Assembly: GCA_022705045.1 (NCBI GenBank)
Contig: JAKJFE010000020.1
Span: 1 to 34,360, forward strand
Origin: Pseudomonadota bacterium
GTDB taxonomy: Bacteria; Pseudomonadota; Gammaproteobacteria; Xanthomonadales; Ahniellaceae
Reading direction: 5' to 3'
Length of the DNA: 34,360 nucleotides
Shown here: one piece after another, positions 6,564 to 27,375 of the stretch
Layout of the letters: each line of letters starts with the position of its first letter
Numbering within the stretch: position 1 is the stretch's first letter
Position numbers and translations under genes: made by a program
The notes under the pieces: generated by a model
Told to the model about the DNA's origin: nothing
What the model saw: the letters and a program-made list of their open reading frames with translations, nothing else
The model's database searches: none

Positions 6564-7016
6564 CTACAACCTCGACCAAGAGTGAGGCCACTCCGAAGCC
6601 GTCGCCACCAGTCCCGCCCGCACCGGATTCTGCAGGCAGTAGTCGATGGCGACAGCCAATTGTGCGTCGCTGTGGATGCGGCGGTCGTGATACTGCGTCT
6701 GCCAAAGCTTGCCGTCGTACTGCAGGCACTTGCCGACCCGGTTCGCGGTGAAACTCTTCATCATGCGCAGCAGCGACGGCCAATCGCCGCCGAGCGGATC
6801 GGCGACGAAATGCAGGTGGTCGGGCATGACCACGGCGACATGCAGCAGCAACCGCTGCGCCGCGTCCAGCCACTGCAACGATTCGAGCACGAGAGCCGCG
6901 GCGACGGGATCGGCGAGCAGCGGCTGTCGATCCGCGCAACACGTGGTGATCAAGGCCCTGCCCGACGTTCGATGCAGTCGCAGCCGATGGCTGCCGCGGG
7001 TGATGTGGGTGTCCAT
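6564..7016 (-). CDS. REP-associated tyrosine transposase (RAYT), group next to REP family A
   Basis: A 150-aa Y1-transposase (IS200/IS605-like, TnpA_REP) domain protein. The metal-binding HUH-type motif is H-L-H in VVMPDHLHFV. The probable catalytic tyrosine lies in the C-terminal block IDYCLQNPVRAGLV, aligned from memory with the tyrosine of E. coli RAYT (DYIYINPVKHG). LWQTQYHDRRIHS precedes it. RAYTs process REP hairpins as single-stranded DNA and usually exist as domesticated single-copy genes. I place the start at ATG 7016; upstream in-frame sequence is REP DNA. The gene is flanked on both sides by family A REPs, and its TAG stop abuts one. It is shorter than the second RAYT here and clearly a different subgroup. 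Confidence 0.88.
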   Translation of the reverse strand: MDTHITRGSHRLRLHRTSGRALITTCCADRQPLLADPVAAALVLESLQWLDAAQRLLLHVAVVMPDHLHFVADPLGGDWPSLLRMMKSFTANRVGKCLQYDGKLWQTQYHDRRIHSDAQLAVAIDYCLQNPVRAGLVATASEWPHSWSRL

Positions 7017-11063: not shown

Positions 11064-11894
11064 CTAGCGACTCAACGCCGCCGCATGCCAGGCCATGTGT
11101 TCACCGATGAAGCTGGCGATGAAGTAGTAGCTGTGGTCGTACCCGGGTTGCAGGCGCAGGGTGAGCGGATGCTGCGCGGCGCTGCAGGCCGCCTGCAGCA
11201 GATCGGGGCGGAGTTGGGTGGCGAGGAATTCGTCGGCGTCGCCCTGGTCGACGAGCAAGGGCAGGCGCTGCGTGGCGTGCTCGATCAGGGCGCAGCTGTC
11301 CCATTCGCGCCACGCCGATTCATCGTCGCCGAGATAGGCGCGCAGAGCCTTCTGGCCCCACGGCACCTGGGTCGGCGCGACGATCGGTGCGAAGGCCGAG
11401 ACGCTGCGATATCGACCGGGATGGCGCAGCGCGATGACGAGTGCGCCGTGCCCGCCCATCGAATGGCCGCTGATGCTGCGCGCATCGCTCGCTTGAAAGT
11501 TCGCCTCGATCCACGCGGGCAATTCGCGCGCGATGTAGTCGTGCATGCGGTAGTGCGCGGCCCAAGGCGCCTGCGTCGCATCGACGTAGAAACCGGCGCC
11601 GAGGCCAAGATCGTAGCCATCGGCATCGGCCACACCGGCACCGCGCGGGCTGGTGTCCGGCGTCACCACGATCAAGCCGTGTTCGGCTGCGTAACGCTGC
11701 ATGCCGGCCTTGGTGATCGCATTCTGTTCGGTGCAGGTGAGGCCGCTCAGCCAGTACAGCACCGGGCAGCGCTGCGTCGCGGCCTGCGGCGGCAGATAGA
11801 CGCCAATGTTCATGTCGCAATCGAGCGTGTCGCTGCGATGGCGATGGACGTCCTGCCAGCCGCCGAAACAGGCGCGATGTTCAATTCGTTGCAT
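11064..11894 (-). CDS. fghA: S-formylglutathione hydrolase
   Basis: A 276-aa esterase-D-type alpha/beta hydrolase that cleaves S-formylglutathione to formate and glutathione, the second step of glutathione-dependent formaldehyde detoxification. The nucleophile is S145 in GHSMGG. The acid is probably D221 in DQGDADEFL, and the catalytic His is H254 in YDHSYYF. The family-typical WLSGLTCTEQNAI and DTSPRG blocks are present, and length is normal. It lies 52 bases downstream of the class III alcohol dehydrogenase on the same strand, so the pair is probably one operon in pathway order. A hairpin in the gap may tune expression. The TAG stop abuts a REP. Confidence 0.95.
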   Translation of the reverse strand: MQRIEHRACFGGWQDVHRHRSDTLDCDMNIGVYLPPQAATQRCPVLYWLSGLTCTEQNAITKAGMQRYAAEHGLIVVTPDTSPRGAGVADADGYDLGLGAGFYVDATQAPWAAHYRMHDYIARELPAWIEANFQASDARSISGHSMGGHGALVIALRHPGRYRSVSAFAPIVAPTQVPWGQKALRAYLGDDESAWREWDSCALIEHATQRLPLLVDQGDADEFLATQLRPDLLQAACSAAQHPLTLRLQPGYDHSYYFIASFIGEHMAWHAAALSR

Positions 11895-13113: not shown

Positions 13114-13386
13114 ATGAGCCCGGAACCCAAGCCCTGGTGCCTGTACCTGATCGAATGCCGCAACGGCGCCTGGTACGCCGGCATCACCAACGACATCGAA
13201 CGCCGCTACGCGATGCATGCGTCCGGCCGCGGCGCGAAATTCACCCGCGCCCATCCACCGCTGCGCCTGCTCGGCACACGCACCTACCCGGACCGCAGCG
13301 CCGCGGCGAAGGCCGAACACGCCATCCGCAAATTGCCCAAGGCGAAGAAGCTCGCCTTCCTCTCGGATCACCCCACCGGAATGTAG
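13114..13386 (+). CDS. GIY-YIG domain protein (UPF0213-like)
   Basis: A 90-aa single-domain GIY-YIG protein. The motif reads CLYLIECRNGAWYAGITND, with the usual ERRYAMHASGRGAKFTRAHPP helix after it, as in the small YhbQ/UPF0213 group. Nuclease activity is known for the fold but not established for most of these small proteins. The start has no clear Shine-Dalgarno but gives the standard length. The stop codon TAG (13384-13386) is part of GTAG at the foot of a family B REP repeat, so the gene ends exactly where the repeat begins. It is divergent from adhC. Confidence 0.9.
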   Translation: MSPEPKPWCLYLIECRNGAWYAGITNDIERRYAMHASGRGAKFTRAHPPLRLLGTRTYPDRSAAAKAEHAIRKLPKAKKLAFLSDHPTGM

Positions 13387-13535
13387 GTCGGCCCGAATGT
13401 AGGTCGGATCAAGCGAAGCGGATCCGACGACGGTTGGATGTCGCGATGCATGGTGATGTCGTCGTCGGATCCCTCGCTGCGCTCGTTGATCCGACCTACA
13501 TTCATGGCATCGACATTCATGGCGTCGACATTCGG
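13383..13535. repeat. REP family B module, inverted orientation, upstream of the second RAYT
   Basis: A truncated element starts at 13383 (GTAGGTCGGCCCGAAT). A full pair follows: 13399-13428 (plus, GTAGGTCGGATCAAGCG core) and 13464-13499 (minus), enclosing a 35-base loop. Next come two 15-base units of type ATTCATGGCATCGAC at 13500-13529 and a partial one. The loop is close to the reverse complement of the loops in the two modules downstream of the RAYT, so this module is inverted relative to them. Confidence 0.9.
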
Positions 13536-13603
13536 AGATTTCGCGGACGGATTTGCGAACACACCGATCGCACCATCGGCGACGATGGTCGACCCTCGTG
13601 GTT

Positions 13604-14077
13604 ATGCGTTATCGGCGACTGCACATTCCGAATGCCCTGGTGTTCCTGACCGTGGTCGCGCATCGGCGCGAACCGGTGCTGCTGCGGCCCGAGGTGCGCG
13701 ACGCGTTCCGGCGCGCCTTCGCGCACGTCGCCGCGCGCCATCCGGTGCGCATGCATGCGTATGTGGTCCTGCCGGATCATTGCCATCTGATCTGGGCGAT
13801 GCCGCAGGAGGACGGCGACTATTCCCGCCGCATGCGCCTGCTCAAGCACCACATGAGCTGCCAGCCCGGGCTGCCCACACGCATCTGGCAGAAGCGGTTC
13901 TGGGATCACGTCATCCGCGACCCCGTCGATCTGGCCCGGCACATGGATTACATCCACCACAACCCGGTCAAACACGGCTGGGTCCAACGCCCGACCGATT
14001 GGCCCGACAGCTCCCTCGCCGCCTGGATCCGCCGCGGCGCCTATCCCCCCGATTGGCACCCCGCCCCGCCAACGTAG
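13604..14077 (+). CDS. REP-associated tyrosine transposase (RAYT), group next to REP family B
   Basis: A 157-aa Y1-transposase domain protein of the YafM-like RAYT group. Features are the opening MRYRRLHIPNALVFLTVV, the HUH-type motif H-C-H in VLPDHCHLIW, IWQKRFWDHVIRD, and the block MDYIHHNPVKHGWV holding the likely catalytic tyrosine. It ends with the group-typical RGAYPPDW. All expected motifs are present, so it may be active. The start at 13604 matches the conserved N-terminus. Stop TAG 14075-14077 is part of the GTAG foot of the downstream REP. Family B REP modules lie on both sides, in opposite orientations. It differs clearly from the RAYT at 6564-7016. Confidence 0.92.
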   Translation: MRYRRLHIPNALVFLTVVAHRREPVLLRPEVRDAFRRAFAHVAARHPVRMHAYVVLPDHCHLIWAMPQEDGDYSRRMRLLKHHMSCQPGLPTRIWQKRFWDHVIRDPVDLARHMDYIHHNPVKHGWVQRPTDWPDSSLAAWIRRGAYPPDWHPAPPT

Positions 14078-14399
14078 GTCGGCCCGAACGTAGGTCGGAT
14101 CAACGAGCGCAGCGAGGGATCCGACGATGGCATCACCATGCATCGCGGCATCCAACCGTCGTCGGATCCGCTTCGCTTGATCCGACCTACATTCATGGCA
14201 TCGATATTCATTGCATCGACATTCGGTTTGCCACCACCGAACCGAACGTAGGTCGGATCAACGAGCGCAGCGAGGGATCCGACGATGGCATCACCATGTA
14301 CCGCGGCATCCAACCGTGGTCGGATCCGCTTCGCTTGATCCGACCTACATTCATGGCATCGATATTCATTGCGTCGACATTCGTTGCGTCGACTTTCGG
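14074..14399. repeat. REP family B array: two 158-base tandem modules with 15-base subrepeats
   Basis: After a truncated element at 14074-14089, two modules follow at exact period 158: pair 14090-14125 / 14161-14190, and pair 14248-14283 / 14319-14348. Each encloses a 35-base loop. Each is followed by 15-base units of type ATTCATGGCATCGAT: two at 14191-14220, three at 14349-14393. The array fills the whole gap between the RAYT stop and the uppP stop. I see no gene in it. Confidence 0.93.
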
Positions 14400-14403
14400 T
14401 TGG

Positions 14404-15207
14404 TCACCGCAAATACACCAACCCCAACACCACCACCCCGAGCGCGATGCGGTACCAGACGAAGGGCATCAGGCCGAGGCGGCGCAGGAAGTGCAGCAGG
14501 AAGTGGATGCAGGCGATGCCGGCCACCGCAGATACGCCGGCGCCGATCGCAAAATCCGCCCAGGCGAAGGTTTCGCCGCTCTTGTACAACTCGAGCGCGC
14601 CATGTGCGCAGGCCGCAGCCGTCACCGGCACGCCCATCAGGAAGCTGTAGCGCGCCGCCTCATGGCGGTTCAAGCCGAGGAACAGGCCAGCGCTCATGGT
14701 GATGCCGGAGCGCGAGGTGCCCGGGATCAGCGCCAGCGCCTGCGCGGCACCGATCAGCAGCGCTTCCTTGATCGACACGTCCATCACGCCTCGGGTCTGG
14801 CGGCCGGTGCGGTCGGCGATGCCGAGCACGATGCCGAAGACGATCAGGTTGACCGCGATCAGGGCCGGCAGGCGCAGCGCGTTCGCGGTCTCCTCGCCCA
14901 TCGCGAGACCCACGACCACGGCCGGAATGATGCCGAGCGCCAGGCCGATGCCGAGCCGATGCTGGGCACGGCCCTGCTCGCTGCGATCGCGCGTCAGCAT
15001 CGCCGTCGCGATCGCGGTCAGGTCGCGGCGGTAGTAGACGAGCACCGCCATCAGCGTGCCGAAATGCAGGGCCAGGTCGAAGGTGACGCCCTGGTAGGCC
15101 CAGCCGAACAGGAAGCCGACCAGGCCGAGATGGCCCGAGCTCGAGATCGGCAGGAATTCGGCCAGCGCCTGCACCAGCGCGAGCAAGAGGATGTGGCTGA
15201 GTTCCAT
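14404..15207 (-). CDS. uppP: Undecaprenyl-diphosphate phosphatase
   Basis: A 267-aa polytopic inner-membrane enzyme (BacA/UppP) that dephosphorylates undecaprenyl diphosphate, recycling the lipid carrier for peptidoglycan and other cell-wall polymers. The two signature regions are present: ALAEFLPISSSGHL near the N-terminus, with Glu and Ser residues, and IPGTSRSGITMSAG in the middle, with the catalytic Arg/Ser motif. About eight hydrophobic segments are visible. Length matches the family (265-275). It is divergent from the NtrX-like regulator with 137 bases between starts, and it ends just after the REP family B array. Confidence 0.96.
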   Translation of the reverse strand: MELSHILLLALVQALAEFLPISSSGHLGLVGFLFGWAYQGVTFDLALHFGTLMAVLVYYRRDLTAIATAMLTRDRSEQGRAQHRLGIGLALGIIPAVVVGLAMGEETANALRLPALIAVNLIVFGIVLGIADRTGRQTRGVMDVSIKEALLIGAAQALALIPGTSRSGITMSAGLFLGLNRHEAARYSFLMGVPVTAAACAHGALELYKSGETFAWADFAIGAGVSAVAGIACIHFLLHFLRRLGLMPFVWYRIALGVVVLGLVYLR

Positions 15208-15344
15208 GGTCGGACCTGCGGCAAAGAAGCCGATTGTGCCAGCCCGGTTTCGTCCGGCTGGTTCAAATTCGGTGTCGAAGCGGGGGCAGCGTGGCCGACG
15301 GCGGTTTCGCTTCGCTATGCTCGGGACCGTTTCACGAGGTCCGC

Positions 15345-16721
15345 ATGAACCAGAATCGCGTGCTCGTCGTCGACGACGAGCCGGACATCCGTCAACTGAT
15401 CGGCGACATCCTGCTCGACGAGGGTCACCAGGTCGAGACCGCCGACAGCGTCACCGCCGCACGTGCGGCCCTGCCGGCCTTCAAGCCGGACCTGGTCCTG
15501 CTCGATGTCTGGCTGCCGGACGGCGACGGCGTCGCCCTGTTGCAGGAATGGCAGGAACAGGGTGCCCTGCATGCGCCGGTGGTGATGATCTCCGGCCACG
15601 GCACCATCGAGACCGCGGTCAGCGCACTCAAGCTCGGCGCCTACGACTTCCTCGAGAAGCCGGTATCGCTCGCGAAGCTGCTGGCGACCGTGCAGCGCGG
15701 TTTCGAACATGCCGCACTGAAGCGCGAAAACATCGGGCTGCGCGCACGCGTGGCACCGCCGCCGCCGATCGGTGGCAGCACCGCGATGCAGATCCTGCGC
15801 ACCCAGCTCGAACGCGCCGCACACGTCGACGCACCGCTGCTGGTCCGCGGCGAAACCGGTACCGGCAAGGAAGCGCTGGCGCGCTACGTGCACGGCCATG
15901 GCCCGCGCGCCGCCGCGCCCTTCGTGCATTTCGCGGCGGCGACGATGGCCGGCGAACGCGGCGTCGGTGCACTGTTCGGCCGCGAGACCGCGCACGGCGA
16001 GGAAGCCGGCGCGATCGCGCAGGCGGCGAATGGCACGCTCTACGTCGATGACGTCGCCAGCCTCGACGCCACCACCCAGGCGCGACTCGCCTCGGCCATC
16101 GCCGCACGCCAGTACGTGCCCGAGGGCGGCCAGAAGCCGCGCGCGTTCAATGCCCGCGTCATCGCCTCGAGCACACGCCCGCTCGAACACGAATTGCAGG
16201 CGGGCACCTTGCGCGAAGACCTGTTCTTCCAGCTCAACGTGCTGACCGTGCATGTGCCGGCGTTGCGCGAACGGCCCGAAGACATCGCCGCCCTGCTGGG
16301 TGCGCATCTGGAACAGGTGGCCGCGCGCGACAGCCTGCCGGCACGGACCTTGAGCGCGCCCGCGGTCGAGCGCCTGCGTCGCCACGCCTGGCCCGGCAAC
16401 CTGCGCGAACTGCGCAACCTGGTGCAACGCCTGCTGATCATCGGCGGCGACGGCGAGATCGACCTCGACGAAATCGAGGACGCACTCGGCATCATCACGC
16501 CGAACCCGGCCAAACCCGCCGGCGATTTCCTGCTCGACCTGTCGCTGCCGCTGCGCGATGCCCGCGACCGCTTCGAACGCGCCTACCTGATGCGCCAGCT
16601 CAAGCACTGCCGCGGCTCGGTCTCGCGCCTCGCGCAGATTTCCGGCATGGAGCGCACCCACCTCTACCGCAAGCTCAAGGACCTCGGCGTCGACCCGAAG
16701 GCGCTGGATGCGAGCGAATGA
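15345..16721 (+). CDS. NtrX-like response regulator with AAA+ and Fis-type HTH domains, lacking GAFTGA
   Basis: A 458-aa response regulator. The receiver domain (1-120) has acidic D10/D11, phospho-acceptor D54 and K105. The AAA+ domain has an intact Walker A (GETGTGKE, 169-176) and a Walker B-like NGTLYVDDVASL where the usual Asp-Glu is Asp-Asp. The segment that should hold GAFTGA reads RETAHGEEAGAIAQ, so the sigma-54 contact loop is missing. The C-terminus (about 405-455) is a Fis-type helix-turn-helix resembling NtrX (SRLAQISGMERTHLYRKLKDLGV). It therefore probably works without activating sigma-54. GAGG lies 5 bases before ATG 15345. No sensor kinase gene is adjacent. Its stop overlaps the next start (ATGA). 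Confidence 0.9.
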   Translation: MNQNRVLVVDDEPDIRQLIGDILLDEGHQVETADSVTAARAALPAFKPDLVLLDVWLPDGDGVALLQEWQEQGALHAPVVMISGHGTIETAVSALKLGAYDFLEKPVSLAKLLATVQRGFEHAALKRENIGLRARVAPPPPIGGSTAMQILRTQLERAAHVDAPLLVRGETGTGKEALARYVHGHGPRAAAPFVHFAAATMAGERGVGALFGRETAHGEEAGAIAQAANGTLYVDDVASLDATTQARLASAIAARQYVPEGGQKPRAFNARVIASSTRPLEHELQAGTLREDLFFQLNVLTVHVPALRERPEDIAALLGAHLEQVAARDSLPARTLSAPAVERLRRHAWPGNLRELRNLVQRLLIIGGDGEIDLDEIEDALGIITPNPAKPAGDFLLDLSLPLRDARDRFERAYLMRQLKHCRGSVSRLAQISGMERTHLYRKLKDLGVDPKALDASE

Positions 16722-17155
16722 AGCGCTGCATGCGCACGCTCGCTGGCCTGATGCTGATCGTCGCGGGAGCAACGACGGCTGAGACCGCAGCGGCCGTCGC
16801 GTCTCCGCTGGATCCGCTGGAATCGGGCTTGAACGGCGCCGGTTGCGAATACCGCGATCTCGACTCGGGAGATCTGCTGATGGTCACCGAATCCAGGTCC
16901 TTGCCGGACGACGGTCGCGGTGTCGCACGCGTTTCGGTGAAGGGCGAGGAACAGCGACTCGACCGGATCGACACCGGGGAAAGCGGACGTCAGGTGTTTG
17001 GCAATGAGCACGTGCACATCGTCGCCCGCGACTTCGGTCCGGTCGATGCCTGTGCCGGCAGCGAATGCGAAGGCAGCCGACAGCGCGCCGTGCTCGACAT
17101 CACGCTGGGGGCAGAACGCAGCCGCATGACGGTGGAGGCGCACTGCGGCGCCTGA
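16718..17155 (+). CDS. Small secreted hypothetical protein
   Basis: A 145-aa protein with an N-terminal signal peptide (about residues 1-27, MKRCMRTLAGLMLIVAGATTA then an Ala-rich cleavage region). The mature part is about 115 residues with four Cys (positions near 43, 112, 117 and 143) that could form disulfides in the periplasm, and acidic beta-rich sequence. I recognise no family. Its ATG overlaps the TGA of the NtrX-like regulator by four bases, so the two are probably translationally coupled and co-expressed. Whether it acts with the regulator is unknown. Confidence 0.78.
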   Translation: MKRCMRTLAGLMLIVAGATTAETAAAVASPLDPLESGLNGAGCEYRDLDSGDLLMVTESRSLPDDGRGVARVSVKGEEQRLDRIDTGESGRQVFGNEHVHIVARDFGPVDACAGSECEGSRQRAVLDITLGAERSRMTVEAHCGA

Positions 17156-17224
17156 CGCCACGGTCGGCGACTTGATGTTGACGCCACCGGTGCGATGATC
17201 GGAGCCTCGCCACCGGAGAGCGCC

Positions 17225-18829
17225 ATGAGCCAGAACCACGATCCGCGTCGTCGCGATTTCATCGCCGGCACTGCCGCGCTGGCGGCCGCGTCGACCTTGC
17301 CCAATGCGGCGCAGGCCGGACACGGCGAACATGCGCACCTCGGCGAATTCGAACTCGCCGGCAAGGACCGTGAAGCACTGACGCTTGGCTTGCAGAACGG
17401 CGAGTACACGGCACTCGGCCTGACCCGCGCCTACCTCGAACGCATCCAGGCGCACGATGTGCGCACGGTCAACGCGGTGATCGAACTGAACCCGGATGCC
17501 GAAGCCATCGCCGCGGCGCTCGATGCCGAGCGCAAGGCCGGCCAGGTCCGCGGCCCGCTGCATGGCCTGCCGGTGCTGATCAAGGACAACATCGATACCG
17601 GCGACCGCATGCACACCACCGCCGGTTCGCTGGCGCTGTCGGACTGGCGTGCGCCGGTCGATGCACCGGTCGCGGCCAGCCTGCGTGCGGCCGGCGCCGT
17701 CATTCTCGGCAAGACCAATCTCAGCGAATGGGCGAATGCGCGTTCGACGCGTTCGACCAGCGGCTGGAGCGCGCGCGGCGGACAGACCACGAATGCCTAT
17801 GACCGCACGCGTTCGCCGAGCGGTTCCAGCTCGGGCACCGGCGCGGCCATCGCGATGGAATTCGCCGCGCTCGGCATCGGCACCGAGACCGACGGTTCGA
17901 TCATCTCGCCCGCGAATGCCAACGGCCTGGTCGGACTGAAGCCGACGCTCGGGCTGGTGCCGCGCACCGGCATCATCCCGATCGCGCATTCGCAGGACAC
18001 CGCCGGCCCGATGACGCGCAGCGTCGCCGATGCGGCCGCCCTGCTCGCCGCGATCGCGCAGCCGAACAACGAGCCCGGCACGATCGCGCCGCCCGCGTCC
18101 GGCTTCGACCGCAACTATCTCGGCGCGTTGAAGGCGCGCGCCGCACAGGGTGCACGCATCGGCGTGGCACGCGGCCTGTTCGGTTTCCATCCGGAGGTGG
18201 ACAAGCTCGCCGACCAAGCGATCCGGGCATTGAAGGAACTCGGCGCCGAGATCATCGACGAGGTCAAGATCGACACCCTCGGCCAGTTCGACGAGAGTGA
18301 ATTCGAGGTGCTGAGCTATGAGCTCAAGGCCGACCTCAATGCCTATCTGTCGCGCCTGCCCGTCACCGCGCCGGCGCGCACGCTGGCCCAGCTGATCGAG
18401 TTCAACCGCGCCCGCGCCACGCTGGAGATGCCGCTGTTCGCCCAGGAATGGTTCGAAAGCGCCGAAGCCAAAGGCGCACTGACCGACCAGGCCTATCGCG
18501 ATGCGCTGGAGAAGAACCACGAGCTGAGCCGCGCCAAGGGCCTGGACGCGGCGTTCGCGGCCCATCGCCTCGATGCCCTGATCGCACCGAGCGGCGGCCC
18601 GGCCTGGCTGATCGACACCATCAATGGCGATCAGTACAGCGGCGGCAACACCTCGCTCGCTGCGGTCGCCGGCTATCCGCACCTGACCGTGCGGATGGGT
18701 TTCGTGCGCCATCTGCCGGTCGGCCTGAGTTTCATGGGCCTGCCCTATTCGGAAGCGAAGCTGCTCGGCCTCGGCTACGCGTTCGAGCAGGCGACGAAGG
18801 CGCGACGATCGCCCTTCCATTCGCGCTGA
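17225..18829 (+). CDS. Exported amidase (amidase signature family)
   Basis: A 534-aa amidase-signature hydrolase. It starts with a twin-arginine-type leader (DPRRRDFIAGTAALAAAS), so the folded enzyme is probably exported by Tat. The Ser-cisSer-Lys triad is visible: K120 in LIKDNIDTGD, the Ser cluster at 201-203 in SGSSSGTGAA, and nucleophile S225 in TDGSIISPA. The following block NGLVGLKPTLGLVPRTGIIPIAHSQD is diagnostic. It is related to GatA, but the leader and lack of gatB/gatC neighbours argue for a catabolic or cell-wall amide rather than tRNA amidation. ATG 17225 follows GGAGAG. The substrate is unknown. Confidence 0.93.
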   Translation: MSQNHDPRRRDFIAGTAALAAASTLPNAAQAGHGEHAHLGEFELAGKDREALTLGLQNGEYTALGLTRAYLERIQAHDVRTVNAVIELNPDAEAIAAALDAERKAGQVRGPLHGLPVLIKDNIDTGDRMHTTAGSLALSDWRAPVDAPVAASLRAAGAVILGKTNLSEWANARSTRSTSGWSARGGQTTNAYDRTRSPSGSSSGTGAAIAMEFAALGIGTETDGSIISPANANGLVGLKPTLGLVPRTGIIPIAHSQDTAGPMTRSVADAAALLAAIAQPNNEPGTIAPPASGFDRNYLGALKARAAQGARIGVARGLFGFHPEVDKLADQAIRALKELGAEIIDEVKIDTLGQFDESEFEVLSYELKADLNAYLSRLPVTAPARTLAQLIEFNRARATLEMPLFAQEWFESAEAKGALTDQAYRDALEKNHELSRAKGLDAAFAAHRLDALIAPSGGPAWLIDTINGDQYSGGNTSLAAVAGYPHLTVRMGFVRHLPVGLSFMGLPYSEAKLLGLGYAFEQATKARRSPFHSR

Positions 18830-18908
18830 TCGCGGGCGGGTGACAATTTTCGCGGCGGATCTTCGTACTGGGGCGCACCAGTCGTTGCCACCCCACCGGA
18901 AATCCGCC

Positions 18909-19946
18909 ATGAACCGTCGCTCCTCGTTGCCGTTGTTCGTCCTGTCGATCCTGTCGCTGGCCACGCCGGCCTACGCCGACGTGCTCGCCGGCAAGATCTG
19001 CGAAGCGAGTTGCGACCGCTTCCGCACGATCTCGATCTTCGGCGACACCATGAATGGCAACACCGAGCCGCTGTCCCTGCTCGGCGGCCCGGCCCAGAGC
19101 GGCATGCTCGACGCGTCGGCCATGGTCTACGACCCCGGCGAGAAGACCGTGCTGGTCGCCGATTTCTACGGCCAGAGCATCCACGTCTTCCCGGCCGCCG
19201 CGCGCGGCGACGTGGCGCCGCTGCGTTCGTTCTCGAGTGCGCACATGGGCCAGCCGCGCAACATCGTGCGGGTGAGCGGACAGGACGAATACATCGCGCT
19301 GAGCGCCAGCTTCCTGCTCGCGTTTCCGCGCACCGCGACCGGCAGCCAGTTCCCGCTGCGCATGACCACGTATGCGCCGACCGTGATCGGCAACGCCAGC
19401 GGTCTCGCCTACCTGCCGGCCAGCGACGAGGTCGCGGTCGGCGACTACGAGGACCTCGGTCCCAATCTGTACGGCGGCGAAGTGCTGATCTTCCCGCGCA
19501 CGATCAGCGGTACGCCGGTGCCGTCGCGACGGATCGCCGGCCCGCTGACGCAGCTGGGTTCGTTCGTGAACTCGCTGGCCGTCGACACGGCCCACAACGA
19601 GTTGTTCGTGCTCGTCACCGATGCCGATTCGCGCAGCCGCATCGTCGTGTTTCCGACCAGCGCGGACGGCAATGTCGCGCCGCTGCGGGTGATCGGCGGC
19701 GACAACACCCGGATGACGAATGCCTCGGGCCTCGACTACTACGCCTTCCGCGACGAATTGCTGGTCGCGAGCGGCACCTACAACAGCGCGACGACACAGG
19801 TGCTCGGCTTCGCGCGGACCGCGCAGGGCAACATCGCGCCGAGCCGGGACATCAGCGGTTCGAACACCGGCGTGAGTGCCGCATCGGGCTGGCTGGCCGT
19901 GGTCGGCGTGCCGCTGGCGCAGGTCTTCGGCGACGGCTTCGAATAG
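18909..19946 (+). CDS. Secreted beta-propeller (NHL/lactonase-like) protein ending in GDGFE
   Basis: A 345-aa secreted protein. The signal peptide covers residues 1-23 (cleavage after AYA). The mature part has about five or six repeats with the pattern I-x-V/I-F-P-R/T then G-x-x-x-P-x-R-x-I-x-G, each carrying a short ADGNVAP / ARGDVAP-type turn, as in NHL- or lactonase-like propellers. A Cys pair near the mature N-terminus (KICEASCD) may form a disulfide. It ends abruptly with AQVFGDGFE. A paralog lies at 24468-25454 with the same ending motif. ATG 18909 begins the signal peptide. Function unknown; the family is a structural inference. Confidence 0.85.
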   Translation: MNRRSSLPLFVLSILSLATPAYADVLAGKICEASCDRFRTISIFGDTMNGNTEPLSLLGGPAQSGMLDASAMVYDPGEKTVLVADFYGQSIHVFPAAARGDVAPLRSFSSAHMGQPRNIVRVSGQDEYIALSASFLLAFPRTATGSQFPLRMTTYAPTVIGNASGLAYLPASDEVAVGDYEDLGPNLYGGEVLIFPRTISGTPVPSRRIAGPLTQLGSFVNSLAVDTAHNELFVLVTDADSRSRIVVFPTSADGNVAPLRVIGGDNTRMTNASGLDYYAFRDELLVASGTYNSATTQVLGFARTAQGNIAPSRDISGSNTGVSAASGWLAVVGVPLAQVFGDGFE

Positions 19947-20030
19947 TCGACCTGTTCGTTCGGACCGTTGCGTTTTCGCGAAACGCATGCGAGCGTCCCG
20001 GCTCGGGGAAATTCGGCGAAGGACGGCAGG

Positions 20031-23000
20031 ATGCAGGGTTCCGAGCGAACGGAGGTGCCGTTCCGGCACAGCCTCAGGGCGAAGTTGCTGGTCGGCCTGG
20101 TGCTGGCGCTGGCGATGCTGCTGGCCGCCGTGCTCGTGGTCTTCTATCTGCGCGGTTACGAACTGCTGATGGCCCGCGAGCGCGAAGCCGCCAATGTCGC
20201 GGCCCAGCGCCTGGCCAGCGACATGGGCAAGGAACTGGCGCTGGCCGAAGGCCTGGCGGTGGCGCTGGAAAACCTGGGCGAGCGCCTGCCGCGCGACGAA
20301 GCCCTGTGGCGCGATGTCATTCCCGGCGTGCTCGACCTCGACGGCCGTGGCGACCTGATCGCCGGCGGCGGGCTATGGCCCGAACCCGATGCCTTCGCGC
20401 CCGGCGTCGCCCGCCGCAGTTTCTTCTGGGGCCGCGACGCCGGCGGCGTGCTGCGCTACTTCGACGACTACAACGCGCCCGACGGTCCCGGTTACCACGG
20501 CGAGGAATGGTACGTGCCGGCCCGTCACCAGCGCGAAGGCCGCTGCTACTGGTCGCGGTCCTATCAGGACCCCTACAGCGGCGAGAAGATGGTGACCTGT
20601 ACGGCAGCGATGCGTGTCGACGACCGCTTCATCGGCGTCAGCACGGTCGATTTGAAACTGTCGGGCCTGCAGGGCTTCCTGGACCGTCGCGGCGCCGCGA
20701 TGCAGGGGTATGCCTTCGCCGTCGATCGCAATGGCGTGTTCATCACCGTGCCGCCGATGCGCCGCGTGCCATTGGCCGGCACCAGCGCTCCGACACCCGC
20801 GGGCAAGGTCTTCGGCATCGCCGACTTCGCCGCCCACCATGCCGACTTCGGTGAACTCGCACGCTTCCTGCAACAGCCGCTGGATGCGCCGCGCGATCCG
20901 CGCCAGGCCGAGATCGCCGAACAGATCGACGCCGCCACGGCCGGCATCGACCGCCCCGAAGCGGAACGCATCGCCGCCCAGTTGCTCGACGACGACGAAC
21001 ATGATCCCGAGGTCCGCCAGGTCACGCTGCCGCGCGATCCGTTCCTGAAGGAAGCGGGCCTCGTCACCGCGATCCGCCTGCCCGGCGCGCATTGGCAGCT
21101 GGTGCTGGTGCAACCGGCACGGTTAGTGCACGAAGCGGTGATGTCGGTGATGACCCGCGTGGCCTGGGCACTGGGCCTGGCCGTCGTCGTCGTGGTCCTG
21201 ATCGCCGGCTGGCTGCTGCGCTGGACCCTGGTGCAGCCGATCCAGCGCATCACCGAACAACTCGCAGCCACCGAACACTCGGTGGTGCCCGGGCGCATCG
21301 ACGAGCGCGGTCGCGACGAACTGGCGCAGCTCGCACGGACCTTCAACCGCTATGCCGAGCAGATCGCCGAAAACCACGCCGACCTGCATGCATCGGCGGA
21401 ACAGTTCCGCGCCGTCACCGAACTGGCGCACGACGCCCTGATCCAGATCGACGACGACGGACGCATCATCAGCATGAACCGCGCCGGCGAGCAGATGTTC
21501 GGCTGGCGCGAAGCGGATCTGGTGGGCGCCGAATTCAAGCGCCTGATGCCCTGGGACCCGCGCGGCGAACGGTTCGGCGAAAGTGATGGCCACGGCGCCA
21601 GTCGCGCCGCCAGCCGCGTGCTGGAACTCAGCGCACAACGCCAGGACGGGCGCGCCTTTCCGGCCGAAGTCTCGGTCAGCTATTGGCGCGGTCCGAGCCA
21701 TGGCCTCTACAACGTGCAGGTGCGCGACGTGACCGAACGCCAGCGCGCCGAAGAACGCGTACGCATGCTGGCCACGCACGACACCCTGACCGGGCTGCCG
21801 AACCGCACCCTGTTCAACGATCGTCTGAAACGCGCGGTCGAACGCTGCCAGCTCGACGACAGCGCGATGGCCCTGCTCTTCCTCGACCTCGACCACTTCA
21901 AGGTCGCGAACGACAGCCTCGGCCACAGCGTCGGCGACGCCCTGCTGCGTGCGGTCGCGGAACGCCTGCAGGATTGCATCCGCCCGGGCGACACCGTCGC
22001 GCGTCTCGGCGGCGACGAGTTCGCGATGCTGATGCCGAACCTGCTCGATGCCGGCGAAGCGGCCTGGATGGCACAACGCATCATCGACCGCATCGGCGAC
22101 GAGTTCGAAATCGACGCACACCGGTTGCAGGTCGGCGTCAGCATCGGCATCACCCTGTGTCCGGGCGACGACCGCCAGGCCGAACAGCTGCTGCGCAAGG
22201 CCGATCTGGCGATGTATCACGCCAAGTCCGAGGGCCGGAACACCTTCCGTTTCTTCACCGACCGCCTGCATGCGGAACTGGTCGAACGCAAGGCCATGCT
22301 CGACCAGCTGGCGCTGGCGCTGGCGCAGCAGCAGTTCGAACTGCATTACCAGCCAGTGATGAATGCGCGCGGCAACGAGTTGCACGGCATCGAGGCACTG
22401 GTGCGCTGGCGCCACCCGACATTGGGTCTGGTCACGCCGGACCGGTTCATTCCGCTGGCCGAACAGAGCGGACTGATCGTGCCGCTCGGTCACTGGATCC
22501 TGACCCAGGCCATCGCTGATCTCGCCCGCTGGGACCAGGCCGAACTGCCGCCGGTGCGGCTCGCGATCAACTTGTCGCTGGCGCAGTTCCGCGATCCGGC
22601 CCTGGTCGAACGATTGCAGTCGGCGCTGAGCGTGCATCAGGTGACGGCGGCGCGGGTCGAGCTGGAACTGACCGAGACCGTGCTGATGCACGACCTCGAC
22701 GACGCCATCGCGATCATGGCCCGGTTGCGCGGCATCGGCCTCGGCCTCGCCGTCGACGATTTCGGCACCGGTTATTCGTCGCTGTCCTACCTCAAGCGCT
22801 TCCCGGTGCAGAAGCTCAAGATCGACAAGAGTTTCGTGCGCGGCGTGGCGGTGGACGAGGATTCGGCCGCGATCTGCCGCTCGGTCATCGCGCTCGGCCA
22901 CAACCTCGGCCTGAATCTGGTCGCCGAGGGCGTGGAAGAACGCGCCGACCTGCAATGGCTGCAAGGCCACCACTGCGACTACGTGCAAGGCTTCCTGATC

Positions 23001-23060
23001 AGCACGCCGCTGCCATTGGACGAGCTGCAGCGCTGGACCGCATCGCGACGCCCCACGTAG
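20031..23060 (+). CDS. Membrane-bound Cache-HAMP-PAS-GGDEF-EAL cyclic-di-GMP protein
   Basis: A 1009-aa sensor for c-di-GMP turnover. Order: TM1 (about 20-42); a large periplasmic Cache-type region (about 43-365, with FFWGRDAGGVLRYFDDYN and WYVPARH-YWSRSYQDPYSGEKMVT); TM2 (about 370-395); HAMP (about 397-450); PAS (about 455-575); GGDEF; EAL. The cyclase motif GGDEF is intact at 660-664, with an inhibitory RxxD (RPGD) five residues before it. The phosphodiesterase has EALVRW (from E788), INLS, DDFGTGYSSL, KIDKSFV and AEGVEE, so both activities look possible. Similar Cache regions bind small molecules; the ligand here is unknown. The stop TAG lies in the GTAG foot of a REP family C element. 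Confidence 0.95.
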   Translation: MQGSERTEVPFRHSLRAKLLVGLVLALAMLLAAVLVVFYLRGYELLMAREREAANVAAQRLASDMGKELALAEGLAVALENLGERLPRDEALWRDVIPGVLDLDGRGDLIAGGGLWPEPDAFAPGVARRSFFWGRDAGGVLRYFDDYNAPDGPGYHGEEWYVPARHQREGRCYWSRSYQDPYSGEKMVTCTAAMRVDDRFIGVSTVDLKLSGLQGFLDRRGAAMQGYAFAVDRNGVFITVPPMRRVPLAGTSAPTPAGKVFGIADFAAHHADFGELARFLQQPLDAPRDPRQAEIAEQIDAATAGIDRPEAERIAAQLLDDDEHDPEVRQVTLPRDPFLKEAGLVTAIRLPGAHWQLVLVQPARLVHEAVMSVMTRVAWALGLAVVVVVLIAGWLLRWTLVQPIQRITEQLAATEHSVVPGRIDERGRDELAQLARTFNRYAEQIAENHADLHASAEQFRAVTELAHDALIQIDDDGRIISMNRAGEQMFGWREADLVGAEFKRLMPWDPRGERFGESDGHGASRAASRVLELSAQRQDGRAFPAEVSVSYWRGPSHGLYNVQVRDVTERQRAEERVRMLATHDTLTGLPNRTLFNDRLKRAVERCQLDDSAMALLFLDLDHFKVANDSLGHSVGDALLRAVAERLQDCIRPGDTVARLGGDEFAMLMPNLLDAGEAAWMAQRIIDRIGDEFEIDAHRLQVGVSIGITLCPGDDRQAEQLLRKADLAMYHAKSEGRNTFRFFTDRLHAELVERKAMLDQLALALAQQQFELHYQPVMNARGNELHGIEALVRWRHPTLGLVTPDRFIPLAEQSGLIVPLGHWILTQAIADLARWDQAELPPVRLAINLSLAQFRDPALVERLQSALSVHQVTAARVELELTETVLMHDLDDAIAIMARLRGIGLGLAVDDFGTGYSSLSYLKRFPVQKLKIDKSFVRGVAVDEDSAAICRSVIALGHNLGLNLVAEGVEERADLQWLQGHHCDYVQGFLISTPLPLDELQRWTASRRPT

Positions 23061-23153
23061 GAGCGCCATTCATGGCGCGATGGAGGTCGCGACAAGGTTC
23101 GGCGCGATAGACGCCGCGACAAGGTTCGGTCGCGCCATGAATGGCGCTCCTAC
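23057..23153. repeat. REP family C inverted pair between convergent genes
   Basis: GTAGGAGCGCCATTCATGGC-GCGA lies at 23057-23080 (plus) and its reverse complement at 23130-23153. The 49-base spacer holds a GCGACAAGGTTCGG unit twice. Both outer GTAG ends supply the TAG stop codons of the flanking convergent genes: the GGDEF-EAL gene (23058-23060) and the TMEM43-like gene (23150-23152). Confidence 0.93.
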
Positions 23154-24334
23154 ATGGCAGGGGGTGGCGGTGGCGTCGTCGCGACCACCGGCGCCGGCGC
23201 CGGCTTGCGCCCGCTGCGCGACCAGAAAAACAGCACGATGACGCCGAGGATGATGGCGCCGCCGAGCAGCGGCCGATAGAACACCCAGGCGATGCCGATC
23301 GTGGTCAGCGACAGCAGCAGCGAGATCAGGCCGGTCACGAGGCCGATGCCCCAGCTGCCGATGGTGCCGAGCATCGGCAACACGTCGAGCACACGGCTGA
23401 TCGGCGCGAACACCATCGACAGACCGATCCACATCAACACGGTGCCACCGAGCCGCACCAGCCAGGTGATCAGGCTGTTGCGCGACTGCGCGCCTTCGAA
23501 CATTTTTGCTGCAGGCACCGAACCGTCCTCGACCAGCAGCACGTCGCGGCCATTCGATGCGACATAACGATCCAGCATCGCACCGGTCTGTTTGGCGACG
23601 ATCGAATAGGTCGCCTCCGGCTGGTATTCGTAGCGCACGCGCATGTCGCCGACCTGCGGACGTTCCGGATCGGCACCGCGATACAGCACGCCACTGGCCA
23701 GGCGCCGGAACTCGCCGAACTGTTCCGGCAACTGCGCGGTGATCTGCGCCGGCAGGTCCTGCCAGCGTCCCAACGCATCACGCACCGGCTGCGCCAGCGT
23801 GAACGCCCCGAGTTTCACTTCGCCGGCAGCGAAGCGGTCCGAGCGCAGCGGCCATTCGCTCGGGTTGGCATGGGTCTCGTATTTCTTGAAGTCGCTGGAA
23901 TCGATCGGATCGTCGTTCCATTCCTGCGCGTATTCGTAGACGGTGACGGTTTCGCTCCCGCCACCGATCTTCTTCTCTTCCTTGCTGCTGCGCTTCTCGA
24001 CCCACTGGTACATCTCGACGACGCGACGCAGCTGCAAGGCATCGACGGCGATGCCGGTGGCCTCGTCGCGCGCCTCGGGGCTGGCGTCGACCGCGCCGGT
24101 CACATGCAACAGCTTGCCTTCGAGTTTGGGATCGACCGCATCGATGCCGACATCGACAACCGCACCCGCACCTTCCTCGAGCGCGCGCGCCTCGCCGATG
24201 GCACGGCCCTCGTTCCACCACAGCAAGGCGAACGAGGCCAGGAACAACAGGCCGCCGATCAAGGCGCCGGACAAGGACTGCCCGATGCGTTTGCCCCAGC
24301 CGGTGCGGGTGACTTCGGTGTAACGGTCGGCCAT
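23150..24334 (-). CDS. TMEM43-like membrane protein
   Basis: A 394-aa protein resembling the TMEM43/LUMA family. It has one N-terminal membrane segment (about 23-42, with FALLWWNEGRA), a large soluble domain (about 50-290) and three or four C-terminal segments (about 288-375), then a Pro-rich tail. Typical blocks are FALLWWNEGRAI, EWNDDPIDSSDFK, HANPSEWP and the terminal MWIGLSMVFAPISRVLDVLP. In animals the family sits in ER/nuclear-envelope membranes; the bacterial role is unknown. ATG 24334 follows a strong GAGGGGAA. Its TAG stop lies in a REP. It is divergent from the second propeller, and an FNR-type box lies between them. Confidence 0.88.
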   Translation of the reverse strand: MADRYTEVTRTGWGKRIGQSLSGALIGGLLFLASFALLWWNEGRAIGEARALEEGAGAVVDVGIDAVDPKLEGKLLHVTGAVDASPEARDEATGIAVDALQLRRVVEMYQWVEKRSSKEEKKIGGGSETVTVYEYAQEWNDDPIDSSDFKKYETHANPSEWPLRSDRFAAGEVKLGAFTLAQPVRDALGRWQDLPAQITAQLPEQFGEFRRLASGVLYRGADPERPQVGDMRVRYEYQPEATYSIVAKQTGAMLDRYVASNGRDVLLVEDGSVPAAKMFEGAQSRNSLITWLVRLGGTVLMWIGLSMVFAPISRVLDVLPMLGTIGSWGIGLVTGLISLLLSLTTIGIAWVFYRPLLGGAIILGVIVLFFWSRSGRKPAPAPVVATTPPPPPAM

Positions 24335-24401
24335 GGCGGTTCCCCTCGTGGATGGCACGCAATCTAGCGTGATGCGGCCGGTTCGGACATGCCTTGCCGG
24401 T

Positions 24402-24443
24402 TTGATCGGAATCAAGCCGGGCCATCTGCGTGACGTCTAGTCT
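24402..24443 (+). promoter_or_regulatory. FNR/Anr-type box with class II promoter geometry
   Basis: TTGATCGGAATCAA at 24402-24415 is a perfect match to the FNR/Anr consensus TTGAT-N4-ATCAA. If centred at -41.5 on the plus strand, transcription would start near 24450, and the -10 region would fall on TCTAGTCT (24436-24443), a passable -10. The leader to ATG 24468 would be about 18 bases with its Shine-Dalgarno. This predicts oxygen- or CRP/FNR-family control of the propeller gene. It lies 68 bases before the TMEM43-like gene on the other strand. Confidence 0.62.
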
Positions 24444-24467
24444 TGCGTGGACAGAGGAGATGCCGCC

Positions 24468-25454
24468 ATGACCCGTGCGGATCGCTGGATTCGAATCCCG
24501 CTCGCCCTGCTGCTGACGCTGGCAATGCCAGGCGCGAACATCGCGGCCGCGGCGGCCTTGCCACCCGGCCAGGAAATCGCCGTCGCGAACTTCGGCAATC
24601 ATCGGGTGCAATGTTTCGCCCGCGACGCCGCCGGCAATGTCACGCCGACCCGCAGCATCGCCGGCCCCGACACCCTGCTGAATCAGCCGAACGGCGTCGC
24701 CTTCGGCGTCGATGCGATCTTCGTCGCCAACCACGAGGGCCGCAGCGTGCTCGCCTTTCCGCGCGAGGCCGACGGCAATGTCGCACCGCTCCGCGTGTTG
24801 TCGGGCGCCCTCACCGGACTGGGTCGCGCGACACACCTGCGCGTGTACGGCGACGAATTGTTCGTCGCCACCTACGACGGCGCGCCGCTCGCGGTGTTCG
24901 ATGTCGGCGCCAGCGGCAACACTGCGCCGAAGCGTGTGCTGAACACGATCAGCAGCGTCTACGGCATCGCCATCGACGGCGAGGAAATGTTCCTGTCGCG
25001 GCACCCGGACACCGGCGATCACGCCATCTACGTCTTCGCGCGCACCGCTGCCGGCACCGACGCGCCGCTGCGCGTGATCCAGGGGCAGTCCTTGAATTTC
25101 CCGGCCGGCCTGGCCCTGACACCGACCGAGCTGATCGTCGCGGACTACTTCAACCACGCCGTGCGCGTGTTCGACCGGTCCGCATCGGGTGTGACGGCGG
25201 CGCTGCGTGTCATCGAGGATCCCGCCGGCCTGTCGAACCCGATCGAGGTGTTCCACCGCGACGACGAGATCTACGTCGCCGCACGCGCCAGCAACAGCAT
25301 TCGCGTCTATGGCATCGGCGACCACGGCAGCGTCGTCGCCCGACGCGTCATCGCCGGTGCGGCCACCCAGATCGACCAGCCGCTGGCCTTGGTCGATTCC
25401 GCGTTTCCGGCCGCGTCCGATCCCGTCTACGCGGACGGTTTCGAGTCTCCGTGA
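24468..25454 (+). CDS. Secreted beta-propeller protein, paralog, ending in YADGFESP
   Basis: A 328-aa secreted protein. The signal peptide is about residues 1-34 (Ala-rich cleavage region), with the mature part starting near LPPGQEIAVANFGNHRVQ. Repeats of about 45 residues follow (AVANFGNHRVQCF, FVANHEGRSVLAF, FVATYDGAPLAVF, LIVADYFNHAVRVF, YVAARASNSIRVY), the NHL-like propeller pattern, each linked by A-x-G-N-x-A/T-P-x-R-x-I/L. The C-terminus DPVYADGFESP matches the ending of the paralog at 18909-19946. GAGGAG precedes ATG 24468, and the FNR-type box lies upstream. Its last 28 bases overlap the end of the convergent gene. The function is unknown. Confidence 0.87.
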   Translation: MTRADRWIRIPLALLLTLAMPGANIAAAAALPPGQEIAVANFGNHRVQCFARDAAGNVTPTRSIAGPDTLLNQPNGVAFGVDAIFVANHEGRSVLAFPREADGNVAPLRVLSGALTGLGRATHLRVYGDELFVATYDGAPLAVFDVGASGNTAPKRVLNTISSVYGIAIDGEEMFLSRHPDTGDHAIYVFARTAAGTDAPLRVIQGQSLNFPAGLALTPTELIVADYFNHAVRVFDRSASGVTAALRVIEDPAGLSNPIEVFHRDDEIYVAARASNSIRVYGIGDHGSVVARRVIAGAATQIDQPLALVDSAFPAASDPVYADGFESP

Positions 25455-26149
25455 GCGGGGGCCTGGGCGGCCAGCGCCTGCATCTCGTCGTGATGGTGGA
25501 TGCGGTCTCCGGCGACGCCGTTCTCGCGGATCAGCTGCGCCATCGCTTCGGCGACGGTGCCGGCGTCGATGCCGCGATAACGCGACAGGCCGCCCTTCAG
25601 CCACGGGCTGTAGAGACGCGCGGCGGCCTGGGCGATGCGTTCGACCGGGCGTGATTCGCCGCGCTCGCCGAGCAGTTGCCCGGGGCGCAGCACATCGATG
25701 CGCGGAAAGCCGAGTTGCGCCAGGTCGCGTTCGACTTCGCCCTTCACACGCAGGTAGAACGAGCGTGAGTTCGGGTCGGCGCCGACCGACGACACCAGCA
25801 GCACCTGGCGCGCACCGCGCGTGCGGGCGACCCGCGCCCAGCGCAGCACCAGGCCATGGTCGATGCTCTGGAACACGACCCTGGACCCCGCCTTGGCGAG
25901 CGTCGTGCCGAGGCAACAGGCATAGGTGTCGATGTGGTCGACGCCATCGTTGGCCAGGACGTTGAGCAGACCGAGGTCGCCAAGTGTCATCGCATCGAGG
26001 ACCGGATTGACCAGCTTCGGATGCGACAGGCCGATGGCGCGCCGGGTCGGTGCGACGACGCGGCCGTCGAAGGCTTCGTCGCGCAACAGTCGCCCGAGCA
26101 GTTCGATGCCGATCAGGCCGGTCGCGCCAGCCAGCAGAACGGTTCGCAT
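25427..26149 (-). CDS. NAD(P)-binding atypical SDR oxidoreductase (HTATIP2/YbjT-like)
   Basis: A 240-aa Rossmann-fold protein of the extended/atypical short-chain dehydrogenase group. The dinucleotide-binding turn is GATGLIG at residues 8-14. LLVSSVGAD at the end of a central strand and Y-L-R-V-K (YxxxK) are as in HTATIP2-like proteins, and IDVLRPGQLLG follows. These proteins bind NADPH, and many have no known substrate. GGAGGA before ATG 26149 fixes the start. It converges on the second propeller gene and overlaps it by 28 bases, tail to tail. It is divergent from the TPR gene with 130 bases between. Confidence 0.88.
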   Translation of the reverse strand: MRTVLLAGATGLIGIELLGRLLRDEAFDGRVVAPTRRAIGLSHPKLVNPVLDAMTLGDLGLLNVLANDGVDHIDTYACCLGTTLAKAGSRVVFQSIDHGLVLRWARVARTRGARQVLLVSSVGADPNSRSFYLRVKGEVERDLAQLGFPRIDVLRPGQLLGERGESRPVERIAQAAARLYSPWLKGGLSRYRGIDAGTVAEAMAQLIRENGVAGDRIHHHDEMQALAAQAPAHGDSKPSA

Positions 26150-26279
26150 GCAGTCCTCCGCAAGAGTCGCCGAAACCCTAGCGCAAACCGGTGCAGGCCG
26201 GGCTTCCGGCACGCTTCGCGCCAGCGCGCGCTGACTACACTGGCCGCGCAATCGGACACGGGTCGCGCGGGACGGGACG

Positions 26280-27308
26280 ATGAACGGGCGAATGGGACGA
26301 AGCTGGCTGGCGATCCTGCTCATCGTCTGGGCGGGCAGCGTCGTCGCCGTGCCAGCACCGGCCCAGATCCTCGCCCTGCCCGGGGCCTTGCGCGACGATT
26401 TCCATGCACGCGTGCTCGACGTCGAGCACGGCGAGGCGCAACGGCTGCAGCGTCTGGTCGACTACCTGTTCGCGCCTGAACTGCTCGGCATGCAATACCA
26501 GCCCGACGCCACCTACACCGTGGCCGAGGCGTATGCGACGCGACGCGCGAACTGCCTGAGCTTCACCCTGCTCACGATCGCGCTCGCGCGCGAAGCCGGG
26601 CTCGATGCCTACGGCCAGGAGATCGCCGAAACCCTGGCCTGGCGCAAGGTCGACCAGACCATCTACCGCTCGAACCACGTCAATGCCGGCGTGACCGTGC
26701 GGCGCAAGCGATTGACCGTCGACGTCGCCTGGGACGAGGTCATCGCCACCGAACCGCCGCGCGCCATCGACGACGCGCGCCTGTTCGCGCACTACTACAA
26801 CAACCGCGCCGTGGACCTGATGCAGGCCGGCCAGCTCGAGGCCGCGCTCGCCCACGCAGAAGCCTCGCTGGCGCAGGATGCGGATTTCGCCACCAGCTGG
26901 AGCAACCTCGGCGTGCTGCGTCGCCATGCCGGCGACGACGCGCGCGCACGCGGCGATTTCGAACACGCCCTGATGCTCGATCCCGCGCACCCCGGCGCGC
27001 TGTCGAACCTCGCGATGCAGCGCCGGCGAGACGGCGACAGCGCAGGCGCGGACGCATTGCTGCGACAACTCGAGTCGGTGCAATCACGCGATCCGCTGCA
27101 CCAGTTCATGCTCGCGCTCGACGCCGAACAGGCCGGCGATTTCGAGCGCGCTGCCACGCACTACCGCCGCGCCATCAAGCTGCACGAGGGCGAACACAGC
27201 TTCCACTTCGGCCTCGCCCGCGTCTATCTGCACCTCGGTCGAGACCGCGCCGCCGCCCGCGAACTCGAACGCGCCCGCGCGCTCAGTGAAGACACCGAAC
27301 GTCTGTAG
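26280..27308 (+). CDS. Exported protein with transglutaminase-like domain and TPR repeats
   Basis: A 342-aa protein with an N-terminal signal peptide (about residues 1-28, ending VPAPAQ). Residues about 70-150 look like a bacterial transglutaminase-like domain: RRANCLSFTLLTIALAREAGLDAY contains the candidate catalytic Cys and SNHVNAGV the candidate His. Residues about 180-335 are four or so TPR-type helical pairs (NNRAVDLMQAGQLEAALAHAEASL, WSNLGVLRRHAGDDARARGDFEHAL, and others). The combination suggests a periplasmic scaffold that may act on or bind peptides; no substrate is evident. The start ATG 26280 follows GGGACGGGACG. The stop TAG (27306-27308) is part of a REP family C element. Confidence 0.83.
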   Translation: MNGRMGRSWLAILLIVWAGSVVAVPAPAQILALPGALRDDFHARVLDVEHGEAQRLQRLVDYLFAPELLGMQYQPDATYTVAEAYATRRANCLSFTLLTIALAREAGLDAYGQEIAETLAWRKVDQTIYRSNHVNAGVTVRRKRLTVDVAWDEVIATEPPRAIDDARLFAHYYNNRAVDLMQAGQLEAALAHAEASLAQDADFATSWSNLGVLRRHAGDDARARGDFEHALMLDPAHPGALSNLAMQRRRDGDSAGADALLRQLESVQSRDPLHQFMLALDAEQAGDFERAATHYRRAIKLHEGEHSFHFGLARVYLHLGRDRAAARELERARALSEDTERL

Positions 27309-27375
27309 GAGCGCCATTCATGGCGCGACCGAATCGCGCCGCAAGCACGGGTCGCGCCATGAACGGCGCTCCTAC
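27305..27375. repeat. REP family C inverted pair between convergent genes
   Basis: Copies lie at 27305-27328 (plus) and 27352-27375 (minus, one base different in the arm) with a 23-base spacer. The GTAG foot of the first provides the TAG stop of the TPR gene. The second ends 11 bases from the TonB receptor stop. It probably forms a strong hairpin between the two convergent genes. Confidence 0.93.

Follow-up and report, generated by a model that had tools for sequence, protein, structure and literature searches.

In the REPtrons of Stenotrophomonas and Escherichia coli, a gene for a REP-associated tyrosine transposase (RAYT, also TnpA-REP) is flanked by its own family of repetitive extragenic palindromic elements (REPs), one of which lies at the rayt stop codon or beside it (PMC2817692, PMC8266576). 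Nunvar et al. 2010 (PMC2817692) described REPs that follow rayt stops directly, and bacterial interspersed mosaic elements (BIMEs) that have captured rayt 3′ ends. RAYTs bind the GTAG motif at the REP foot, which acts as a guide, and cleave at CT or CA (PMC8266576); this published role in binding and guidance does not make GTAG a landing site. Here we describe a contig of 34,360 nt (JAKJFE010000020.1; hereafter the window) from a metagenome-assembled genome of the gammaproteobacterial family Ahniellaceae (G000), in which the feet of GTAG REPs supply the TAG stop codons of five genes. One of these genes encodes a RAYT and, as in the described REPtrons, lies among REPs of its own family, but it differs from them in taking its own stop codon from the TAG of a duplicated REP foot.

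The passages of Di Nocera et al. 2013 (PMC3733652) considered here state that GTAG REPs "often provide" TAG, and present the GTAG superfamily as GTAG-tagged short palindromes, often dimers, beside gene 3′ ends, which is also how the REPs of the window appear. Those passages contain no count, frame analysis or ancestral stop, which the present work measures in one genome and its relatives. The QMITEs of Coxiella burnetii (PMC5896051) are likewise small mobile repeats lying over gene 3′ ends, ubiB and CBU_2020 being listed with an element-conferred STOP, but they belong to an unrelated class of longer elements with terminal inverted repeats and direct repeats and are not GTAG REPs. Given these earlier papers on GTAG REPs, rayt genes and QMITEs, our finding is a better documented example of a known effect, to which we add ancestral stops, a one-sided frame pattern and conservation across congeners. 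Our literature search found no published counterpart of these three, which is not proof that none exists.

Stop codons carried by REP feet

The sequence analysed amounts to 1.32 of the 3.35 Mb of G000 and comprises most contigs carrying known feet together with a sample of odd-numbered contigs; the window is one whole contig. Three REP families are present in the window: family A, with a GTGG foot, and families B and C, both with a GTAG foot (GTAGGTCGG and GTAGGAGCGCC, respectively; family B begins GTAGGTCGGATC). Families B and C, and a third GTAG family (GTAGGCTGG), are palindromes with GTAG at one end, the hallmark of the GTAG superfamily. The ~76 non-coding GTAG REPs in the 1.32 Mb, a modest copy number for REPs, are dispersed and mostly extragenic. 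Families B and C form BIMEs, that is, inverted REP pairs with GTAG facing outward (13399–13499, 14090–14190, 14248–14348, 23057–23153 and 27305–27375), each of which is predicted to form one long hairpin (z −7.6 to −9.7; for the whole BIME at 23057–23153, −69.1 kcal/mol and z −9.7).

Direct reading places the TAG of a family B or C foot exactly on the stop codon at 13384–13386 (+), 14075–14077 (+), 23058–23060 (+), 23150–23152 (−) and 27306–27308 (+), in full agreement with an earlier note on this DNA. Gene ends were predicted with our own codon-model gene caller, and most, though not all, were checked by homology; the caller found the same nine TAG-ended genes as that note, plus one doubtful open reading frame (ORF) at the window edge. 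Seven of the nine TAGs had been placed at a REP edge by the earlier note; five of them are indeed GTAG feet, and the remaining two, next to family A, differ in kind. At 13383 and 14074 the TAG lies within a 9-base duplicate of the family B foot (GTAGGTCGGCCCGAAY) and the complete REP begins 16 bases on (13399 and 14090), the last codon and the stop of the GIY-YIG gene both lying inside a family B unit (GAATGTAG). The match to NF047646 at 13604–14077 marks an IS200-like Y1 transposase gene situated between family B BIMEs, as expected of a REPtron. The EAL and TMEM43-like genes converge on a single family C BIME and each is stopped by one of its feet. The five cases in the window can be traced to about three insertion loci, namely the RAYT locus, the BIME shared by the convergent genes and a further BIME.

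Four further genes elsewhere in the genome, encoding an FmdB-like protein, a histidine kinase, a SulP transporter and a small protein on contig C230, have plausible coding ends at which the TAG of a REP terminus is again the stop of the flanking ORF. Another ORF with a REP-foot TAG, C17:1080, is doubtful and looks like an antisense artefact.

Table 1. Positions of REPs, BIMEs and associated genes in the window.
Feature	Positions	Strand	Evidence
RAYT-like gene beside family A (GTGG) REPs; TAG not from a REP foot	6564..7016	-	tblastn and HMMER match to RAYT
Esterase gene; TAG merely abuts a family A repeat	11064..11894	-	sequence
GIY-YIG domain gene, ending ...GGA ATG TAG	13114..13386	+	Pfam PF01541
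Duplicated 9-base family B foot GTAGGTCGG, source of the TAG of the GIY-YIG gene	13383..13391	+	sequence
Family B BIME, two REPs, GTAG outward; one hairpin, z -7.6	13399..13499	+	sequence, folding
RAYT gene; stopped by the TAG of the family B foot that follows	13604..14077	+	NCBIfam NF047646, 151.6 bits (cut-off 80); Pfam Y1_Tnp
Duplicated family B foot, source of the TAG of the RAYT gene	14074..14082	+	sequence
Family B BIME	14090..14190	+	sequence, folding
Second family B BIME copy, 97% identity over 142 nt	14248..14348	+	sequence
PAS-GGDEF-EAL gene; ends ACG TAG, with the TAG from a family C foot	20031..23060	+	Pfam
Family C REP, GTAGGAGCGCCATTCATGGCGCGA	23057..23080	+	sequence
Partner of the REP at 23057 in the same family C BIME; source of the TAG of the convergent gene	23130..23153	-	sequence
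TMEM43-like gene, ending ATG TAG at a REP foot	23150..24334	-	Pfam PF07787
TPR gene shortened by a REP: ...LSEDTERL, then TAG	26292..27308	+	ortholog comparison
Family C REP, source of the TAG of the TPR gene	27305..27328	+	sequence
Partner of the REP at 27305; TAG 15 nt beyond the TGA of the convergent gene (offset +15)	27352..27375	-	sequence, folding

Frame pattern and ancestral stops

TAG accounts for 9.6% of 386 stops in a 467-kb sample of the genome, which served as the unbiased subset for stop-codon counts, for 113 of 1108 in the 1.32 Mb and for 10 of 29 in the window (one doubtful ORF included). The window is an outlier: only 3 of the 37 TAG stops in the unbiased sample are REP feet, one of which belongs to the doubtful C17 ORF. 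We expressed the position of each REP foot TAG relative to the gene stop as an offset, 0 being a TAG exactly on the stop, and compared complete sense GTAG feet lying 0–31 nt from a stop with a uniform null by a binomial test. Of the 27 complete GTAG REPs that face a gene end no more than 31 nt away, 8 have offset 0, where ~0.8 would be expected (P = 1.2e-6); outside the window the figure is 5 of 21 (P = 4e-4), or 4 of 20 without the C17 ORF. The full list of offsets is 0 (eight times), 5, 5, 6, 7, 8, 8, 12, 15, 15, 16, 16, 19, 21, 22, 24, 27, 28, 28 and 31. On the other side of the stop, no REP foot was found at offsets −48 to −1 anywhere in the 1.32 Mb, that is, no REP is run into out of frame by a gene end. 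At the REP density observed just downstream of stops (0.61 per nt), the last 16 codons should have received ~10 landings in frame and ~20 out of frame; 8 complete feet were seen in frame (10 if the duplicated feet at 13383 and 14074 are counted), and no out-of-frame foot was seen. These counts fit neutral landing followed by loss of the out-of-frame cases, without attraction to stops.

The stops that preceded the REPs were read from REP-free orthologs of the same genus and family, in the congeners G001 and G002 and in relatives that include G003, G004, G006 and G008. Of the 21 REP-free orthologs of seven REP-ended genes, 19 have TGA or TAA as their stop; the other two have TAG, which corresponds to the genome background of ~10%. 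The stops are TGA twice for the histidine kinase; TGA four times for SulP; TGA three times and TAG once for FmdB; TGA and TAA for the EAL gene; TAA (G008) and TGA (G006) for the GIY-YIG gene; TGA (G002 and G003) and TAA (G004) for the TMEM43-like gene, just past the same proline-rich tail; and TGA three times and TAG once for the TPR gene. Relative to the REP-free form, the REP-ended protein differs by about −16 codons for TPR, about −8 for FmdB, −4 for EAL (the G002 ortholog has its TGA 4 codons later), about −2 for the histidine kinase, about 0 for TMEM43 and +1 for SulP. The REP-free TPR ortholog of G001 continues for ~16 codons to a TGA, through a segment conserved in several relatives (RYxAKLxxLR), and we therefore conclude that the REP cut the TPR gene short. 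The TAGs are REP feet, the ancestral stops are not enriched in TAG, and REP-borne ends lie between 16 codons before and 1 codon after the REP-free end.

Since REP-free orthologs mostly use TGA or TAA, the REPs bring their TAG with them rather than settling on old TAGs. This bears out the earlier note's claim that REPs supply TAG stops, the protein ending where the REP starts, and the genome-wide count that it proposed does reveal an excess at offset 0 in this genome. Its suggestion that REPs insert after or replace a GTAG already at the gene end is supported neither by the pre-insertion stops nor by the genes with a REP a few bases past the stop, which are mostly TGA (15 TGA and 4 TAG of 19, two of the four being the window genes ended by a duplicated foot); the comparison with REP-free orthologs that it proposed, to see the ancestral stop, found TAG only at background. 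A further suggestion, that selection keeps REPs where they re-create a stop, holds in one form, namely the absence of out-of-frame runs where ~20 were expected.

In each of the three congeneric species examined, the GIY-YIG gene takes its TAG from family B: the G001 and G002 genes also end ATG TAG with a family B BIME, and in G002 the TAG lies in the foot of a complete REP. At the EAL/TMEM43 pair of G001, a BIME of another sequence subfamily occupies the same place and gives the same two TAG stops. REP-borne stops can therefore outlast species splits. On the convergent side of the histidine kinase locus, beside an rpmG-like gene, G002 (locus L175 on contig C11) has a decayed REP foot, GCAGGAGC, where G000 has GTAGGAGC.

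How REPs may come to end genes

The reading that we consider probable is that BIMEs with outward GTAG feet land near gene 3′ ends, and that those landing upstream of the old stop persist only if the TAG is in frame. REPs, mostly as BIMEs of this type, would insert at and just past gene 3′ ends. Landing downstream of the stop would have no effect on the gene, and landing within the last codons would replace the gene's end. A foot in the TAG-reading frame would stop translation at once at a cost of few residues, so that the insertion would survive; a foot in either of the remaining frames would leave the ribosome to enter or cross the hairpin, and selection would remove the insertion. The REP would carry its TAG along, turning an ancestral TGA or TAA end into TAG. 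We infer that the RAYT moves the REPs and that the frame filter is made by selection, not by targeting.

Several points weigh against this reading. The sample is small, with 9–10 events, some of which share one BIME or one RAYT locus and are not independent; gene ends come from our own caller, and the C17:1080 ORF is doubtful; and no ortholog of the C230 gene was found. Several REP-borne stops lie no more than 2 codons from the ancestral stop, closer than uniform insertion over 16 codons would place them, and there may be some preference for the stop itself. Clean pairs of empty and filled sites between strains were not seen, the relatives compared being separate species, and the effect is weak in G005 and absent in E. 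coli.

A REP might alternatively lie in frame past the stop and take over when the original TGA is later lost, its TAG then ending a slightly longer protein. SulP, ~1 codon longer than its G002 ortholog, would fit such a history, and the in-frame downstream REPs at offsets 6, 12, 15, 21, 24 and 27 would serve as back-up stops; most REP-ended proteins are however of equal length or shorter (by ~16 codons for TPR and ~8 for FmdB), which makes this route unlikely. We regard as improbable that the REPs are held in place by positive selection for a hairpin tight behind the stop, useful for termination, mRNA stability or translational damping, with GTAG-as-stop the tightest arrangement. The very stable folding predicted for BIME transcripts would suit such a role, E. 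coli REPs less than 16 nt from a stop lower translation according to work cited in PMC12306157, and the REP-borne double stop of the EAL/TMEM43 pair has been kept in G001 despite a different REP subfamily. However, the neutral count fits without this selection, and E. coli, the source of the translational effect, does not put GTAG feet on stops.

Targeting, in which the RAYT steers REPs into a pre-existing GTAG or TAG at gene ends so that the stop is older than the REP, would produce the strong excess at offset 0; moreover, short motifs direct the related IS200/IS605 transposases to their targets, and the cleavage site in REPs is chosen with GTAG as a guide (PMC8266576). It is nevertheless very unlikely, since TAG is at background in REP-free orthologs (2 of 21), TGA persists in most genes that have a REP a few bases downstream, the RAYTs tested cleave at CT or CA and not at GTAG (PMC8266576), and the TPR gene lost ~16 codons, so that its old stop lay elsewhere; retargeting to an existing TAG was rejected on the ortholog stops. 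Finally, mis-called gene ends, whereby any ORF crossing a GTAG foot in frame seems to end there, hold for the C17:1080 ORF and beset the first G005 calls, which were self-trained on long ORFs, chose antisense ORFs (TAG 35%) and were discarded and redone with the G000 codon model as seed (TAG share then 16%), but as a general explanation they are hardly credible, being contradicted for seven genes that belong to recognised families and whose orthologs can be aligned almost as far as the C-terminus.

Family A, other RAYT genes and other genomes

Family A was considered as a supplier of TAG and rejected: its foot cannot provide one because it is GTGG, and both adjacent TAGs are of other origin. 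The TAG at 6564 (−) terminates a RAYT gene and lies in AGGTTGTAGAGC. This rayt 3′ end (6572, −) recurs at 8818 (−), where it flanks a family A REP that follows another gene, as though a rayt end had been captured into a BIME. In a Marinomonas RAYT, a GTGG mutant foot moved cleavage to CC (PMC8266576), and the RAYT gene at 6564–7016 with its GTGG REPs is a natural pair suited to testing the guide model. Amid the family A copies, three tandem 18-bp units (CAAGAGCAAGCTTCACAG) occupy 6421–6482; tandem 78-bp units, 79% alike and each with GTTCGCCCTGAGCCTGTCGAAGGGC, lie at 3560–3715 within a predicted gene (3532–4248, −).

Seven RAYT-like genes were found in the incomplete 3.35-Mb genome, most of them beside a REP family. 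Those on contigs C94, C167, C131, C161, C104 and C70 mostly adjoin a different REP family, each with few copies. Between the GIY-YIG gene and the next gene (13383–14390), G000 has the RAYT gene and extra BIME copies, and G001, with the same neighbours, has one BIME and no RAYT gene; either the RAYT gene came in within a BIME already present, or recombination between repeats removed it from G001.

E. coli K-12 REPs share the GTAG foot and the RAYT partner with those of the window, yet in 350 kb of annotated MG1655 sequence none of 17 TAG stops is a REP foot, the nearest foot lying 9 nt past a stop. G005 has more than 400 REP copies, the commonest dimers of which have GTAG inward, and only two of its TAGs are REP feet; at loci such as L204, L206 and L211 the inward-facing feet are separated by ~13 nt, an arrangement opposite to that of the window. 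The lack of genome-wide enrichment that would have counted against REP-supplied stops is therefore seen in E. coli K-12, and nearly so in G005, but not in G000. What the effect depends on would thus be feet that face outward and tight packing, rather than the mere presence of REPs. More tentatively, and with considerable doubt, outward GTAG might make REPs self-terminating elements: because each REP edge has an amber stop, one in three landings in a gene tail would be harmless, gene 3′ ends would be invaded and TAG fixed, and the REP would be locked in place because its foot is now the stop codon. GTAG would then owe its conservation in part to this benefit, besides its role in transposase binding.

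In conclusion, a tiny mobile repeat can alter the end of a gene without killing the gene, converting TGA or TAA to TAG and trimming up to ~16 residues. The numerical rule is simple, in-frame insertions surviving and out-of-frame ones not, and any genome rich in REPs offers a test of it; in annotation, a gene whose TAG stop belongs to a REP foot should be read as having a rewritten C-terminus.

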